A stretch of 60,785 bases of DNA, taken from assembly GCA_021793275.1 (NCBI GenBank), contig JAJYTC010000003.1, positions 1 to 60,785 of the forward strand, given 5' to 3'. How positions within the stretch are numbered: the first letter of the stretch is position 1; each line of letters begins with the position of its first letter. The position numbers were made by a program, and so were the translations under genes. Shown piece by piece: positions 41,017 through 47,952 of the stretch. Source of the DNA: Deltaproteobacteria bacterium (lineage in GTDB: Bacteria; Desulfobacterota; Syntrophobacteria; Syntrophobacterales; Syntrophobacteraceae). The notes beneath the pieces were generated by a model that saw only the letters and a list, made by a program, of their open reading frames with translations, did no database searches and was not told the DNA's origin.

Positions 41017-41562
41017 ATGCGCATTCGCATTGATGAAATACCGGAATCAGGCCGAACCCTCAGCTTCCACTGGGACCAGGAAATGCTGGGCCGGTTCGCT
41101 TCTGCGGACGACCCCTTCAGCCTCAAACTGCTCAGGCCGGTTAACGTCGTCCTTTTCCTGGACAAACGTCCCGACCATATTAGAATTACGGGAACCATTA
41201 AAGGAGCGCTTGAGGTTGCCTGTCACCGCTGCCTCAAGCCCTTTGCGCTTCCCATGGACGAACGGGTCGATATCTATCTGGTCACCGAGGAGAAAATTGC
41301 GCGGGATGATGAAATAGAACTCGAACCGGATGAATTGCTCTATGAGTTTTTTGACGGCGAAGTGATCGAAGTGGACAGGCTCGTAGCCGAACAGATTTTT
41401 CTGGCTCTGCCGGTCAAGGTCCTTTGCAGCGAGGATTGCAAAGGGATATGCCCCCGGTGCGGGGCAAACCTCAATGAGGAGGCCTGCCGGTGCAAAACCG
41501 ACAGCTCCCCTTCTCCCTTTGCGAAGCTCAGGCTGGTGAAAAAGCCCCGGCCCGAAGAATAG
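41017..41562 (+). CDS. yceD: YceD / DUF177 family protein
   Basis: A 181-residue protein with the DUF177 core: GALEVACHRCLKPFALPMDE and, later, the Cys-rich SEDCKGICPRCGANLNEEACRC. The family is almost always encoded just upstream of rpmF, and plant and bacterial members are linked to 23S rRNA accumulation. ATG 41017 is chosen over 40990, which would translate the heptamer array. No Shine-Dalgarno sequence is evident. Confidence 0.87.
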   Translation: MRIRIDEIPESGRTLSFHWDQEMLGRFASADDPFSLKLLRPVNVVLFLDKRPDHIRITGTIKGALEVACHRCLKPFALPMDERVDIYLVTEEKIARDDEIELEPDELLYEFFDGEVIEVDRLVAEQIFLALPVKVLCSEDCKGICPRCGANLNEEACRCKTDSSPSPFAKLRLVKKPRPEE

Positions 41563-41624: not shown

Positions 41625-41807
41625 ATGGGTGTACCGAAAAGAAAAACGTCCAAAGCCAGACGCGACAAGCGCCGGGCAAATCACGCCATTGCCGCGCCGG
41701 CGCTGGCTCGTTGCCCCCAATGCAGTGAATTGCGCTTGGCGCATCGTGCCTGTCCGAACTGCGGGTACTATAAAGGCCGCCTGGTCCTGGAACTAGAGGA
41801 AGAATAA
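41625..41807 (+). CDS. rpmF: 50S ribosomal protein L32, zinc form
   Basis: This 60-residue protein begins GVPKRKTSKARRDKRRANH and carries the zinc ribbon C30, C33, C43 and C46. It lies 62 bp after yceD and just before a plsX remnant, the standard yceD-rpmF-plsX order. Confidence 0.95.
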   Translation: MGVPKRKTSKARRDKRRANHAIAAPALARCPQCSELRLAHRACPNCGYYKGRLVLELEEE

Positions 41808-41828
41808 AGCAGCCGGCCGGGTCGTCAT

Positions 41829-42302
41829 GTCCGGCTGAACTGGTGCTGATCGGAGACCCGGCCGCTATTCGCTGCGCTCTGCCGAACGGATCGGCCTTCC
41901 CGCCCCGGGCGCAAGTCGTACCTGCGCCCCCTTGTCGTCTCGATGGATGAATTCGGTCCGTCAGCCATCCGAAAGAAGCGTGAAGCATCGATCAACGTTG
42001 CAATGCGCATGCTGGCGGAAGGCGAAGTGGATTCGGTGGGCAGTGCGGGGAACAGCTCGGCGGTTGTCGCCGCCGTCAGGCACTTCGTTGGTCTCCTGCC
42101 TGGGCTTAAAAGACCGGCCCTTGCCGTTTGCTTCCCCACCCGGGGCGCAAGGCCGATCTTGCTCGAAGCCGGACCACATCCCGAATCGGGGGCCTTACAC
42201 CTCGCCCGGTCTGCAGTTCTTGCTCATATTTACCTAAGGGTCAGCCGGGGGATCGAACGGCCCGCCCTCTGCCTGCTGAACATCGGGAGCGAACCGGCCA
42301 AG
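41829..42302 (+). pseudogene. plsX: decayed plsX (phosphate acyltransferase) remnant
   Basis: PlsX makes acyl-phosphate for phospholipid synthesis. Here only its middle third is recognisable, in two frames. Bases 41834-41875 encode AELVLIGDPAAIR. After a frame change, 41931-42302 encode LVVSMDEFGPSAIRKKREAS, VGSAGNSSAVVAAV, GLKRPALAV and RGIERPALCLLNIG. The N-terminal MGGD region and about the last 110 residues are missing. Conserved positions are altered; where PlsX has a DxGANxDC block this has EAGPHPES. Position after rpmF supports the identity. An open frame runs on to 42476 but without similarity. A sequencing error could explain the frameshift but not the missing ends. Confidence 0.75.
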
Positions 42303-42561
42303 GGCGCCGGGACCGCTCGGCGCTCGGATCGGGAAGGAGCGGGCAAAACCGGGACGGATATTCACAGAGGGACGCCTGCGCCAAAGTTGCGGGGAGCTGA
42401 AAAAACGGTGCGTTTTTTCTTCCTTGCGATCATCGGCGCGGAACTCGATATTGGCTTATCTCCGCTTTTGTGTTAAGGAATCCGGATTCTAAACTCTTTA
42501 GGCCGGTTTTTTTTACGCGGGGGCCGAAGCTGACGGAAGTTTTTGTATCGGAGGGAACACG
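42303..42561. other. region between the plsX remnant and acd
   Basis: Contains the non-homologous 3' end of the remnant ORF, then a T-run near 42510-42520 and the GGAGGG that serves acd. No fabH or fabD coding sequence is recognisable here in any frame I examined. Confidence 0.5.
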
Positions 42562-43731
42562 TTGGACTATTTCTTGACTGAAGAACAGAAAATGATCCAG
42601 GAGCTGACCGAGCAGATCGCCAGGGAAAAAATTCGCCCGATCAGGGCCGAACTGGATGAATCCGAGCAGTTTCCGTGGGAGATTATGCGGACCCTCGCCC
42701 AGGCCGACCTCTTCGGTCTGTGCATTCCCGAGCAATATGGCGGAATGGGAGGCGGAGTATTCGAGAACTGCCTTGCGGTGGAAAAACTCGGTGAGGCTTG
42801 TATAGGCATTGCAACGAGCTTTGCCGCCAGCGGGCTCGGAGCCTATCCGATCCTTCTTTTCGGCAGCGAGGAAATGAAGCAAAAATACCTGCCTCAGATT
42901 GCTTCGGGAAAAAAGTTGGCCGCTTTCGGGCTTACCGAACCGGGGGCGGGAAGTGATGTTTCCGGAATCCGCACCGTGGCTGTAAGAGACGGGGACAGTT
43001 ATGTCCTTAACGGCTCCAAGCAATGGATCACCAATGGCGGCGAGTCGGAGATTTATTCGGTGCTGGCGATAACCGACAGGGCTAAAGGCCCGCGGGGCGC
43101 GAGCTTCTTTGTGGTTGAAAAGGGCGACCCGGGGTTTTCCTTTGGAAAAAAGGAAAAAAAGCTCGGTATCCGAGCTTCCGCCACACGCGAACTGATTTTC
43201 CAGGACTGCCGCATTCCCGCCGACAGGCTTATCGCCAGGGAGGGGATGGGATTTATCATCGCCATGAAGACCTTTGATAAATCCAGGCCCGGCATTGGCG
43301 CCCTGGGAGTCGGGCTGGCCCAGGGGGCCCTCGATATCGCCGTCGAATATGCCAGAAAAAGGGTCCAGTTCGAAAAACCCATCATCAGCTTTCAGGCAAT
43401 TCAGCATAAGCTTGCAGATATGGCCATAAAAACCGAGGCCGCCCGGGCTTTCATCTACAGTATAGCGCGCTACATCGATTCCGATCCCCGCGAGGTTAGC
43501 AAAGTCGCCGCAATGGCCAAGGTGTTCGCCGGCGATGTGGCCATGGAGGTCACTACGAGCGCCGTGCAGGTGCTGGGCGGTTACGGCTACATGAAGGATT
43601 ACCCCGTCGAAAAGATGATGCGCGACGCCAAGATATTGCAGATTTACGAGGGTACGAACGAAATCCAGAGAAACATTATCGGCCAGGAATTGAACAAAGA
43701 ATACGGCAGGATGAAGGAGAGCTTCTTCTGA
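42562..43731 (+). CDS. acyl-CoA dehydrogenase
   Basis: This FAD enzyme of the medium/short-chain family shows FGLTEPGAGSDVSG, KQWITNGG, the FAD-binding RVQFEKPIISFQAIQHKLADM and the catalytic base Glu363 in QIYEGTNEIQR. It has 389 residues. The start is TTG 42562 with CGGAGGG upstream. The order acd-etfB-etfA, with a ferredoxin-fused EtfA, matches carCDE (caffeyl-CoA reductase-Etf) of Acetobacterium. That suggests a dedicated electron-bifurcating or confurcating acyl-CoA dehydrogenase/enoyl-CoA reductase. The substrate is unknown. Confidence 0.9.
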   Translation: MDYFLTEEQKMIQELTEQIAREKIRPIRAELDESEQFPWEIMRTLAQADLFGLCIPEQYGGMGGGVFENCLAVEKLGEACIGIATSFAASGLGAYPILLFGSEEMKQKYLPQIASGKKLAAFGLTEPGAGSDVSGIRTVAVRDGDSYVLNGSKQWITNGGESEIYSVLAITDRAKGPRGASFFVVEKGDPGFSFGKKEKKLGIRASATRELIFQDCRIPADRLIAREGMGFIIAMKTFDKSRPGIGALGVGLAQGALDIAVEYARKRVQFEKPIISFQAIQHKLADMAIKTEAARAFIYSIARYIDSDPREVSKVAAMAKVFAGDVAMEVTTSAVQVLGGYGYMKDYPVEKMMRDAKILQIYEGTNEIQRNIIGQELNKEYGRMKESFF

Positions 43732-43732
43732 T

Positions 43733-44524
43733 ATGCACATAGTCGTATGTATTAAGCAAGTGCCTGATACCAAAAACGTCAGGATCGATCCGGACACTCA
43801 CACCCTGGTTAGGCAGGGAGTCGAGAGCATAATCAATCCCTTCGATATGTTCGCAGTGGAAGGCGCACTGAAAATCAAAGACCAAAACGGAGCTAGAGTC
43901 ACGGTAGTTACTATGGGGCCGCCCCAGGCCGCCGAGGCCCTGAGGGAAACCCTCGGGCTCGGGGCTGACGACGCCGTGCTCTTAAGCGACCGGGCTTTCG
44001 CAGGTTCGGACACCTGGGCCACCTCGACCACTCTTTCGGCGGCCATCCGCAAAATGGGCGACGTTGACGTCATTATTTGCGGAAAACAGGCCGTCGATGG
44101 CGATACCGCGCAGGTCGGACCGGAAATGGCCGCTTTGCTCGATGTGCCTTATGCGACATTTGTCAAAAAAATCGACACAGAGGACTCCGGTTTTCTCAAG
44201 GTCGTACGTCAGACCGATGAAGGGACCGAGGTCTGGAAGCTTCAGTTGCCGGCTTTGCTAACGGTGATAAAGGAACTGGGCGAGCCCAGGGTCCCATCGC
44301 TTAGGCACAAAATGCGCGCCAAGAAAGCCGAAATTCCCGTCTGGGGAATTGCCGAACTGGGTCTTGATCCGAGCTCGACCGGCCTTAGCGGCTCCTTTAC
44401 TCAGGTCGTGCGTGTTTTCAGCCCGCAGAGGCGAAGTAATCGAATTCAGCTTGAAGGCTCTATCGAGAATCAGGCCGAAGAGCTTTTTCAATATTTGAAG
44501 AAGGCCAGGGTGCCAGGTCTATGA
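43733..44524 (+). CDS. etfB: electron transfer flavoprotein beta subunit
   Basis: This 263-residue protein begins MHIVVCIKQVPDTKNVRID. The nucleotide-binding motif is KQAVDGDTAQVGPEMA near residue 118. The DGDTAQVGP form is shared with FAD-binding, bifurcating-type Etfs, whereas mitochondrial-type EtfB has a DDDxNQTG form and binds AMP. It starts 1 bp after acd and overlaps etfA by 4 nt (ATGA). Confidence 0.93.
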   Translation: MHIVVCIKQVPDTKNVRIDPDTHTLVRQGVESIINPFDMFAVEGALKIKDQNGARVTVVTMGPPQAAEALRETLGLGADDAVLLSDRAFAGSDTWATSTTLSAAIRKMGDVDVIICGKQAVDGDTAQVGPEMAALLDVPYATFVKKIDTEDSGFLKVVRQTDEGTEVWKLQLPALLTVIKELGEPRVPSLRHKMRAKKAEIPVWGIAELGLDPSSTGLSGSFTQVVRVFSPQRRSNRIQLEGSIENQAEELFQYLKKARVPGL

Positions 44525-45714
44525 AAGCTATTGTAGACAGAAAAAAATGCACGGTTTGCGGGGTCTGCTCGGACGCCTGTCCGATGGGCGCTATTTCCCT
44601 GCGTGAAAACCAGGTTGAAATCTCCGATGATTGCTCGCTTTGCGGTATTTGCGTCGATACCTGCGAGTTCGGCGCCATATCTCTTCCCGAAGTCGGCCTG
44701 GGCCCTTCGGAGGACCTCGGGAGTTACAGTGGGGTATGGGTGTACGCCGAATGGCGCGAAGGCAAAGTCCACAGGGTGAGCCACGAACTGCTTAGCGCCG
44801 GGCGCATCCTGGCCGACAAAAGAGGCGTCGAGCTTGGGGCCGTGTTGCTCGGTTCCGGCCTCGATGAGGAGATGGCCCAAGAACTGATTTCCTATGGCGC
44901 TGAAGTGGTCTATGTGGTGGACCGCCCCGAGTTGGCTCATTTTACCGACGAGCGCTATTCGAAATGCATCGTGGAATTGGTAAGGCGCAAACGCCCCGAA
45001 ATTTTTCTCGCGGGTGCAACCAGCATCGGCCGTTCTTTTATCCCGCGCGTCGCTGCCGGCCTGCAAACCGGACTGACCGCCGACTGCACTGAATTGGACG
45101 TCGGCGACGACGGGCATCTGCTCCAGACCAGGCCCGCCTTTGGCGGAAATGTTATGGCGACTATCATCTGTCCCAACCGGCGGCCGCAGATGGCCACGGT
45201 GCGCCCGAAGGTCATGAAGCCCGTAAGGCTTGAGGGGCGGCAGGGCAGAATCGAAAGGGTTGAGCTTCCTTCCGAGTGCTTCAAAGCGCGGGTGGAAGTG
45301 CTCGAAGTCATCGCCGAACAGGACCAGACCGCCAAACTCACTGAAGCCGACGTTATCATCTCGGGCGGACGAGGTCTGAGAAGCGGGGAGAATTTCAACC
45401 TGATCGAAGATCTCGCCGAGCTTATGAACGGTGCGGTCGGGGCTTCCCGCGGGGCGGTCGAGGAAGGCTGGATGGCCCCTTCTCACCAGGTCGGGCAGAC
45501 GGGCAGGACTGTAGCGCCAGCCCTCTACGTTGCCGTGGGGATATCAGGCGCGGTTCAGCATCTCGTCGGAATGCAGGGCTCACAGGTTATTGTGGCCGTA
45601 AACAAAGACCCGCATGCTCCTATTTTCGACGTGGCCACTTACGGGGTGGTAGCCGATCTTTTCGAATTCATCCCCGAGTTCCTGAAGCGTATAAAGCGCG
45701 AGCGGGATGCATGA
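44521..45714 (+). CDS. etfA: electron transfer flavoprotein alpha subunit with N-terminal 2x[4Fe-4S] domain
   Basis: A 397-residue fusion. Residues 1-55 form a bacterial ferredoxin domain with two clusters (C10, C13, C16, C20 and C38, C41, C44, C48). The rest is EtfA, ending with the FAD site AVEEGWMAPSHQVGQTGRTV and ALYVAVGISGAVQHLVGM. This architecture is known in CarE and LctC-type bifurcating Etfs. The clusters likely pass electrons to or from ferredoxin. A REP-like palindrome follows before fabG. Confidence 0.93.
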   Translation: MKAIVDRKKCTVCGVCSDACPMGAISLRENQVEISDDCSLCGICVDTCEFGAISLPEVGLGPSEDLGSYSGVWVYAEWREGKVHRVSHELLSAGRILADKRGVELGAVLLGSGLDEEMAQELISYGAEVVYVVDRPELAHFTDERYSKCIVELVRRKRPEIFLAGATSIGRSFIPRVAAGLQTGLTADCTELDVGDDGHLLQTRPAFGGNVMATIICPNRRPQMATVRPKVMKPVRLEGRQGRIERVELPSECFKARVEVLEVIAEQDQTAKLTEADVIISGGRGLRSGENFNLIEDLAELMNGAVGASRGAVEEGWMAPSHQVGQTGRTVAPALYVAVGISGAVQHLVGMQGSQVIVAVNKDPHAPIFDVATYGVVADLFEFIPEFLKRIKRERDA

Positions 45715-45845: not shown

Positions 45846-46589
45846 TTGAGCGAGCAGCGAGTTGTCGTGGTAACAGGGGCAAGCCGCGGGATTGGCCGCG
45901 CCATTGCCGTGGAAATGGCCGCTCCGAATACCCATGTCGTCATCAATTACAACTCGAATCCTGAGTCTGCCGAACAGACCGCGTCCCTGGTCCAAAGCAG
46001 GGGCGCTACATCGAGTGCCATGCAGTTCAATGTGGCCGATCCCGATGCGGTCAAGGCGGCCTTCGATCGAATCATCGACGCCCACGGCCACATCGACGTT
46101 CTCGTCAATAACGCCGGAATAGCCAGAGATAATCTTCTCGCCATCATGAAGCCGGCGGAATGGGACGACGTTATGGCCACCAACCTCAAAGGCGCTTTTC
46201 TTTGCTCGCAGGCGGTCATAAGGCCGATGATGCGCCGGCGCTTCGGACGTATCGTGAACGTCACATCGGTAGTGGCCGCGACGGGTAACCCGGGGCAGTG
46301 CAACTATTCGGCGGCAAAGGCCGGCATTATCGGCCTTACGAAGTCCCTTGCCCGTGAAATTGTGTCCAGGAAAATCACCGTCAACGCCGTAGCCCCGGGA
46401 TATATTGAAACGGATATGACGGCGGCGCTTCCGCCCAAAGCACGGGAGGCGTTGCTGGCGCAGATTCCGGCGGGTAGACCGGGCGCCCCGGAAGAGGTTG
46501 CGGCTGCCGTTGCTTTTCTTGCATCAGATGCGGCCGGATACATAACCGGTCAGGTAATACACGTGAACGGCGGAATGTTCATGGGCTAA
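45846..46589 (+). CDS. fabG: 3-oxoacyl-[acyl-carrier-protein] reductase (SDR family)
   Basis: Reduces beta-ketoacyl-ACP with NADPH. The cofactor loop is TGASRGIGRA; the catalytic tetrad is N113, S141, Y154 and K158; the C-terminal GYITGQVIHVNGG is typical. The start is TTG 45846 after GAAGGAGA. It has 247 residues. It lies between a redox cassette and fabF, with no acpP in the 103-bp gap that follows. An acyl-CoA-directed role is possible. Confidence 0.88.
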   Translation: MSEQRVVVVTGASRGIGRAIAVEMAAPNTHVVINYNSNPESAEQTASLVQSRGATSSAMQFNVADPDAVKAAFDRIIDAHGHIDVLVNNAGIARDNLLAIMKPAEWDDVMATNLKGAFLCSQAVIRPMMRRRFGRIVNVTSVVAATGNPGQCNYSAAKAGIIGLTKSLAREIVSRKITVNAVAPGYIETDMTAALPPKAREALLAQIPAGRPGAPEEVAAAVAFLASDAAGYITGQVIHVNGGMFMG

Positions 46590-46692
46590 GTGATTTTATG
46601 CTTCCACAGACTCCCGGTGTCAATCCGGCGCGCAGGGGCAACAGGGTGGAATGAAAGCGAAACGCAAATAGTCTCTCCGGGGGAACGGCAGG

Positions 46693-47952
46693 ATGAAGTC
46701 AGACAATAACAGGCGACGTGTGGTTATTACCGGTATCGGGTTGGTTAGTCCGCTTGGCGTCGGAATCGAAGAGAACTGGTCTAATGTGATTACCGGGAAG
46801 TCGGGCATAGGACCGATTACCCGCTTCGATTCTTCCGCATTCGCAACAAAAATCGCCGGAGAGGTCAAAAATTTTCATCCCGAGGAGTTCATCAGCAAAA
46901 AAGAACTGCGAAAAATGGACCCGTTCCTTCAGTTGGCCCTGGGCGCAGCCCACTACGCCATGGAAGACGCCGGACTGAAGATAGCCCCTGAGGTCGCTCC
47001 CCGGGTCGGAGCGGTGATCGGTTGCGGTCTTGGCGGCTTGCGCACCATCGAGGAATCGCATAAGCAGGTAATGGAATCCGGTCCCAAAAAGATTAGTCCC
47101 TTCTTCATTCCGATGATCATCAGCAATATGGCCCCGGGCCTTATCTCGATCTACCATGGCGCAAAGGGCCCAAACCTTTCCCTGCAAACTGCGTGCGCCG
47201 CTGGGACCCACGCCGTCGGTCATGCCTATCATCTCATTCGAAACGGCCTTGCGGAAGCGATGATAACGGGTGGCGTCGAATCGGTCATTACGACCCTCGC
47301 AATAGCCGGCTTTAATGCTATGCGCGCGCTTTCCACGCGAAATGACGACCCCGAGCACGCTTCGAGGCCTTTCGACAAGGAAAGGGACGGCTTTATCCTG
47401 AGCGAAGGCGCCGGTTTGCTGGTCATCGAAGAACTAAATTTCGCCCGTGCGCGGGGCGCTAAAATCTATGCCGAACTGATCGGCTTCGGGGCCTCGGGAG
47501 ACGCCTACCACATGGCCGCTCCTGCCCCCGAAGGCGAAGGGGCCGCGCGCTGCATGCAAATGGCCCTGGACGATGGCGACATAAAACCGCAGGACGTGCA
47601 GTATATTAACGCGCACGGCACCTCGACGGACCTCAACGACAAATACGAGACTCAGGCTATAAAGACCGTTTTCGGGGACCACGCCTACAAACTCGCCGTC
47701 AGTTCCACGAAGTCGATGACCGGCCATCTCCTTGGCGCGGCGGGCGGAGTCGAGGCCGCCTATACCACCCTCGCCCTGCACAATCAGATCATGCCCCCGA
47801 CCATGAATTATGAATTCCCCGACCCGGACTGCGATCTCGACTACGTTCCCAACGCCGCCCGCAAGGCTAAAATAGACATCGCACTGTCCAACTCGTTTGG
47901 CTTCGGGGGAACCAACGGGACGCTTGTCTTCAAAAGATGGTCCGGAGAATAG
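46693..47952 (+). CDS. fabF: beta-ketoacyl-ACP synthase II
   Basis: Elongates acyl-ACP with malonyl-ACP. The catalytic Cys168 is in [12 protein letters not shown], with His308 in [11 protein letters not shown] and Lys340/His345 in [15 protein letters not shown]. It has 419 residues and starts with [17 protein letters not shown]. The immediate upstream gap has no acpP. It ends before heptamer element H and the convergent HDOD gene. Confidence 0.93.

Follow-up and report, generated by a model that had tools for sequence, protein, structure and literature searches.

The window analyzed here, a 60,785-nucleotide (nt) stretch of contig JAJYTC010000003.1 from a genome of the order Syntrophobacterales (assembly GCA_021793275.1, designated G000), carries a pseudogene of plsX, the gene for the acyl-acyl carrier protein (ACP):phosphate transacylase. 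The remnant occupies window positions 41815–42363, the usual plsX site directly after rpmF, and has most probably been inactivated by deletions that took its start and most of its 3’ half. The fossil itself is ordinary gene loss, and its value lies in being one step in a series of losses. A probability of roughly 0.85 is assigned jointly to the whole explanation developed below, namely a plsX pseudogene, a PlsB/PlsC route to phosphatidic acid, an earlier loss of PlsY, an orphan PlsX acting as a drain, and repeated loss of that orphan. The census of the order covered 39 genomes, and was set against a wider set of 77 relatives and 14 control genomes.

The plsX remnant

The gap between rpmF (41625–41807) and acd (42562–43731) measures 754 bp and holds three pieces of plsX:

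41815..41926, forward strand: first piece of the plsX fossil, codons ~23–60 of an intact relative in their own frame, start codon deleted; DNA alignment with genus-mates G006 and G004, translated match of 14.4 bits.
41927..42323, forward strand: main piece, in a shifted frame, best preserved over 124 codons at 41943–42314; PF02504 E-value 1.8e-21, 85% amino acid (aa) identity to G006 PlsX.
42309..42363, forward strand: third, short piece beyond the internal deletion, overlapping the second piece at the junction; blastn match to G006 nt 730–783, E-value 2.8e-6.

In a profile search of the window's frames, the 177-aa frame opening at 41943 matched both Pfam PF02504 and TIGR00182 (E-value 2.5e-22 for the latter). 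Coverage of PF02504 was limited to positions 64–191 of 324 (73–191 in the match with E-value 1.8e-21), and the last ~50 residues of the frame fell outside the PlsX match. The upstream frame (41808–41945) produced the second, weak match, whose score compares with a best of 5.8 bits in any frame of 1,100 shuffled gaps. A DNA profile of plsX built from two genus-mates scored 432 bits at the window gap, the best of 1,100 shuffles reaching 2.6 bits. Because the locus yceD-rpmF-plsX-acd-etfBA-fabG-fabF is conserved in relatives, the site of the remnant is orthologous to plsX. The original prediction, a decayed plsX beside an intact rpmF with PlsX-like segments in two frames, was thus confirmed on both counts.

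The intact plsX of G006 (351 codons, or 1,053 nt without the stop codon) served as the alignment reference. By blastn, its nt 69–576 correspond to window positions 41815–42323 and its nt 730–783 to 42309–42363, such that the remnant lacks the start codon and the rest of the first 68 nt, ~150 nt internally and the last ~270 nt, a total of ~490 nt in three places. Alignment with G006 and G004 also places a one-base frame change near 41926. The deletions remove 13 of the 18 core residues, and one more, D139, has been replaced. A short repeat, GGCCGG, stands at the left junction and flanks the missing stretch in G006, suggesting that the left deletion occurred between short direct repeats. Significant PlsX homology at the plsX locus is therefore accompanied by loss of start, frame and core residues, as in a pseudogene, and the best window frame (79.5 bits) falls far below the curated TIGR00182 cut-off of 243.4 bits for a functional PlsX equivalog.

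The original prediction also pointed to altered conserved residues, a claim that holds in part. The kept segment has 20 columns with no variation among 26 intact relatives, and 3 of these are changed in the remnant; in a leave-one-out control the same test gave 0 or 1 changes for each of the 25 relatives from the order and 2 of 22 for the outgroup G041. The apparent alterations at positions 103, 143 and 154, on the other hand, are lineage traits common to the intact relatives and not decay. Compared with G006, the kept 124 codons show an omega (ratio of replacement to silent substitution rates) of 0.17 and a synonymous divergence (dS) of 0.42, and since the latter is below the 0.60–0.81 of the neighbouring genes, the loss of plsX in G000 looks recent. 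On its own branch the remnant has 4 replacement and 9 silent codons, versus 1 and 6 on the branch of G006; these numbers are few, with the direction as expected for decay.

Two readings would spare the gene. In the first, an error in the contig hides a plsX that is intact in the organism. The source resembles a metagenome bin (278 contigs; 4.47% contamination), and the frame change near 41926 taken alone could be an error, but the missing sequence is distributed over three places and not one, the remnant exceeds its same-order relatives in changes at invariant columns (3 of 20), the flanking genes are intact and syntenic, and four other genomes of the genus are also without plsX and retain pieces of it (one marginally); such an error is considered highly improbable. 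In the second, the 177-codon frame encodes a shortened PlsX-like protein still in use, as its length and the low omega of the kept segment might suggest. Most of the core residues have been deleted, however, D139 is replaced, the terminal ~50 residues have no profile match, these G+C-rich gaps often contain long open frames, and the low omega appears mostly inherited from before the loss, as judged by the codon counts on the two branches, which makes a working short protein very unlikely. A second plsX copy in G000 was likewise put low, as the remnant is the sole PlsX match in the whole-genome search.

Glycerol-3-phosphate acylation without PlsY

PlsY was absent from G000 in a whole-genome search, and PF02660 was detected in none of the 39 genomes of the order, against 26 of the complete set of 77 relatives and 8 of the 14 controls. 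The PlsX/PlsY pathway to phosphatidic acid, which requires PlsY in the same genome, is therefore not found in the order. The PlsB of G000 is ~886 aa in length with intact H-x4-D and EGGRSR motifs, which we take to be those of PlsB, and its PlsC scores 123 bits with TIGR00530, over the curated cut-off, so that both proteins of the PlsB/PlsC pathway are present. PlsB was found in 38 of the 39 genomes of the order, the exception (G011) being 90% complete and in ~450 contigs. The original prediction had offered either another plsX copy or reliance on PlsB or another acyltransferase as the consequence of the loss; the first option found no support, and reliance on PlsB holds because there is neither a second PlsX nor a PlsY while PlsB, in divergent form, and PlsC are both encoded.

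Across the 77 genomes, which are related and not independent, PlsX and PlsY occur together in 2 of 56 with a PlsB match of at least 300 bits and in 12 of 21 without one; outside the order the corresponding figures are 2 of 18 and 12 of 20. A neighbouring family (f5) shows the reverse: 10 of its 12 genomes (G040, G042, G044, G046, G047, G048, G050, G052, G053 and G054) have PlsY but no PlsX, and nine of these ten also have PlsB. Two other connections were tested and rejected. A link of the orphan PlsX to FakAB finds no partner, FakB/DegV (PF02645) being absent from all 39 genomes of the order, and a tie between PlsX loss and loss of lipopolysaccharide is contradicted by LpxC, which is present in all 39.

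The orphan PlsX of the order

PlsX was detected in 27 of the 39 genomes (26 full-length proteins and the window remnant), and 12 have none. The full-length proteins, all without a genomic PlsY, are referred to here as orphans, and 25 of the 26 (G034 was left out) were aligned with 56 other PlsX: 16 from the phylum, of which 13 have a PlsY match, that of E. coli, and 39 from named contigs. The latter are 39 of the 44 PlsX frames in the named loci, three orphans of the order and two fragments being excluded. Information on PlsY covers 16 of the 56 comparison genomes (13 positive), and E. coli matched as a control.

Omega was 0.09–0.30 in nine pairs of intact orphans, some with dS near saturation, and by this measure purifying selection acts on the intact orphan PlsX. 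None of the 25 aligned orphans has lost any of the 18 chosen core positions. The structural model of the UBA696 orphan (L156) has a predicted local distance difference test (pLDDT) score of 90.7, and its best PDB matches are the PlsX proteins of B. subtilis and E. faecalis, followed by phosphotransacetylases. The TIGR00182 cut-off is passed by L156 (265.5 bits) and L157 (266.1 bits) and failed by L159 of Desulfacinum hydrothermale (219.4 bits).

With respect to the 56 other PlsX, most orphans are changed at positions 103, 143, 144, 146, 154, 209, 219, 272 and 286. Ten changed positions were considered as a signature of PlsY loss, an idea rejected as about five of them also vary in B. subtilis, a PlsY bacterium; only 103, 143, 144, 219 and the loss of an aromatic residue at 154 are claimed here as apparently peculiar to the orphans. 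A larger difference is seen in the hairpin, the tip of which is needed for membrane binding in B. subtilis PlsX and loses lipid binding when glutamates are placed in it (PMC10146087, PMC6702220). The 18-residue tip contains five or fewer hydrophobic residues in 24 of 25 orphans and at least six in 53 of 56 other PlsX, so that by this count of sequence composition the membrane-docking tip belonging to the PlsX/PlsY pathway is missing from 24 of the 25 intact orphans. Within-group identity in the hairpin is 0.19 for orphans and 0.35 for the others, while the rest of the protein is equally conserved in both (0.56 and 0.55), and in three genomes the hairpin stretch is shortened from ~41 to 28 residues. 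These features suggest that the orphan PlsX has become detached from the membrane. The lowest hydrophobic count of the 56 comparison sequences, 4, belongs to G056 (L018), a small genome, 66% complete, with no PlsY match.

The orphan PlsX is a variant form of PlsX. No account of PlsX without PlsY in this order was found in the open-access literature, subscription literature being mostly outside the scope of the search, and no claim to a first report is made.

Repeated loss of plsX

A tree was constructed from seven neighbouring proteins of 36 of the 39 loci, those of G012, G033 and G035 being too short. On the best tree, the presence and absence of PlsX requires 6 changes, at least 4 of which are forced by well-supported branches, and plsX has thus been lost repeatedly in the order. 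In the window's genus, 5 of 11 genomes are without a working plsX, and all five keep traces in different parts of the gene. The DNA profile identified these at nt 67–576 in G000 (the 432-bit match), 825–1037 in G007 (74.8 bits), 283–500 in G010 (29.7 bits), 853–953 in G002 (27.8 bits) and, marginally, 973–1044 in G009 (7.8 bits), all scoring over the best of the shuffled gaps. The rpmF-acd gaps of G014, G017, G020, G022, G024 and G027 yielded no plsX trace, with a profile that, being made from the genus, may be too narrow to detect older fossils; G033 and G035 were outside this search, as acd was not found beside rpmF there. In G002 (L115), one of the genomes that have lost plsX, etfB and etfA are also missing between acd and fabG.

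Both the number of losses and the function of what was lost have been open to a different reading. Within the genus, plsX could have been inactivated once, in an ancestor of G000, G007, G009 and G010, with the copies then eroding differently. Monophyly of these four is not rejected by an approximately unbiased (AU) test (p 0.124), although in the best trees they are interleaved with G004 and G006, in both of which plsX is intact, and the kept pieces of G000 and G007 do not overlap, hence the large deletions must be separate. G002 branches outside these six genomes with support of 100/100 and so needs its own loss of plsX. A single inactivation of the four is therefore a serious candidate, if one that we doubt. 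As for function, the orphan could be a new enzyme of the phosphotransacetylase fold, such as an acyl-ACP:coenzyme A (CoA) transacylase or a thioesterase, and no longer an acyl-ACP:phosphate transacylase. The replacement of near-invariant positions beside the core motifs, the sub-threshold score of the D. hydrothermale protein (219 versus 243 bits) and the fold shared with phosphotransacetylases would agree with such a change, which is nonetheless unlikely given the retention of 18 of 18 core positions in every orphan aligned and the passing of the plsX cut-off by two others.

Proposed explanation

The explanation preferred here is that PlsY, absent from all 39 genomes, was lost before the order diversified. 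In G000, PlsB would carry out the first acylation of glycerol-3-phosphate, using acyl-ACP or acyl-CoA directly, and PlsC the second, activities assigned from their families; since the two enzymes would perform both acylations, the cell tolerates the loss of plsX. PlsX would have persisted as an orphan, retaining its transacylase core residues under purifying selection and losing the hydrophobic and basic character of its hairpin tip. The simplest reading is that, without a PlsY to feed, membrane docking stopped mattering while the chemistry still did. The likeliest remaining role would be to drain surplus long-chain acyl-ACP as acyl-phosphate, which is then hydrolyzed to free fatty acid, the same role that has been proposed for PlsY-independent E. 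coli PlsX. The gene would have been lost repeatedly because this drain only fine-tunes, and the window would be one such loss, partly eroded. As the whole order lacks PlsY, the PlsX of G000 did not belong to a functional PlsX/PlsY pathway at the time of its decay. A further proposal, that PlsX of the Syntrophobacterales forms a soluble class of its own, independent of both PlsY and the membrane and serving as a drain, perhaps also as a maker of an acyl-phosphate signal, is tentative, and its chances are put at slightly under even.

Several observations weigh against this explanation. The G000 PlsB matches NF003441 with 412–423 bits, below the curated plsB cut-off of 618.5 bits, which is reached by none of the 77 genomes and by one of the 14 controls; the PlsB here, and that of the order when compared with E. 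coli PlsB, is therefore a divergent form. The low omega and low dS of the kept segment make the point-mutation evidence for decay weak on its own. G000 (4.65 Mb, 278 contigs, 97% complete, 4.5% contamination) is apparently a metagenome bin, incomplete and partly contaminated, and for this reason some small chance of an unseen plsX copy persists. B. subtilis, in which PlsX works with PlsY, also differs at positions 146, 154 (in part), 209, 272 and 286. In the hairpin comparison a single clade is contrasted with all others, which amounts to one event, and the p-values are not independent. Finally, G041, a member of another family also without PlsY, shows only a partial change and a normal hairpin count of 7, which weakens any simple rule that the hairpin is lost wherever PlsY is.

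Comparison with known systems

As in E. coli, the PlsX locus of the order lies after yceD and rpmF, and the orphans resemble known PlsX (TIGR00182, PF02504; B. subtilis 6A1K, E. coli plsX) in fold, core residues and, for two of three tested, curated model score. In contrast to known PlsX, the copy in the window is dead, and its intact relatives lack a genomic PlsY and are changed at 103, 143, 144, 146, 154, 209, 219 and 286 with an eroded membrane hairpin. In E. coli, a PlsB organism, PlsX is dispensable (Rex et al. 2024, PMC11633183; Yoshimura et al. 2007, PMC1950310), and in the absence of PlsY it has been proposed to drain long-chain acyl-ACP as acyl-phosphate to free fatty acid (PMC11633183). 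The order resembles the E. coli delta-plsX and delta-plsXY strains in combining PlsB with a dispensable PlsX. Joint loss of PlsX and PlsY is reported as lethal in E. coli (PMC11633183, PMC1950310), unlike the order, where 12 of 39 genomes are without both and G000 has only a dead plsX. Acyl-phosphate has also been proposed to restrain LpxC in E. coli, though it was not reliably detected (DeHart et al. 2026, PMC13060810). This model is similar in predicting a PlsY-independent job for PlsX, and LpxC is available throughout the order; unlike the model, LpxC is equally present where PlsX has repeatedly been lost, and LpxC coupling is therefore not required in the order.

Why PlsB bacteria keep PlsX is treated as an open question in recent E. 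coli work, in which the roles of PlsX are hard to separate. An order without PlsY, in which PlsX was kept with an altered surface and then lost repeatedly, provides a ready comparison set, naming both candidate proteins for a PlsY-independent role and the genomes that live without either enzyme. If the soluble-class reading is true, repeated loss of PlsX in PlsB bacteria would show that PlsY feeding and acyl-ACP trimming are separable in nature.

Locus and neighbouring genes

The genes flanking the remnant are as follows:

41017..41562, forward strand: yceD (DUF177), conserved upstream neighbour; PF02620 E-value 2.4e-30, same place in relatives.
41625..41807, forward strand: rpmF, intact ribosomal protein L32; PF01783 E-value 1.4e-26, TIGR01031 E-value 1.9e-25.
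42437..42495, forward strand: non-coding leader of the acd operon, conserved in an alignment of 5 members of the genus and retained despite the loss of plsX.
42562..43731, forward strand: acd, intact acyl-CoA dehydrogenase; 77–95% identity at this position in those genomes of the order that retain the locus.
43733..44524, forward strand: etfB; conserved synteny.
44521..45714, forward strand: etfA; conserved synteny.
45846..46589, forward strand: fabG; conserved synteny.
46693..47952, forward strand: fabF; conserved synteny.

The block at 42437–42495 may be a promoter; a sigma-70 consensus for acd was sought in this region and none was found. An acyl-CoA dehydrogenase and its electron carrier sit within a fatty-acid synthesis cluster, acd-etfB-etfA (42562–45714) lying between plsX and fabG where E. 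coli carries fabH-fabD, and few proteins of the locus are as well conserved in the order as acd. In many bacteria acpP stands between fabG and fabF; here the intervening gap (46590–46692) leaves no room for an acyl carrier protein gene.
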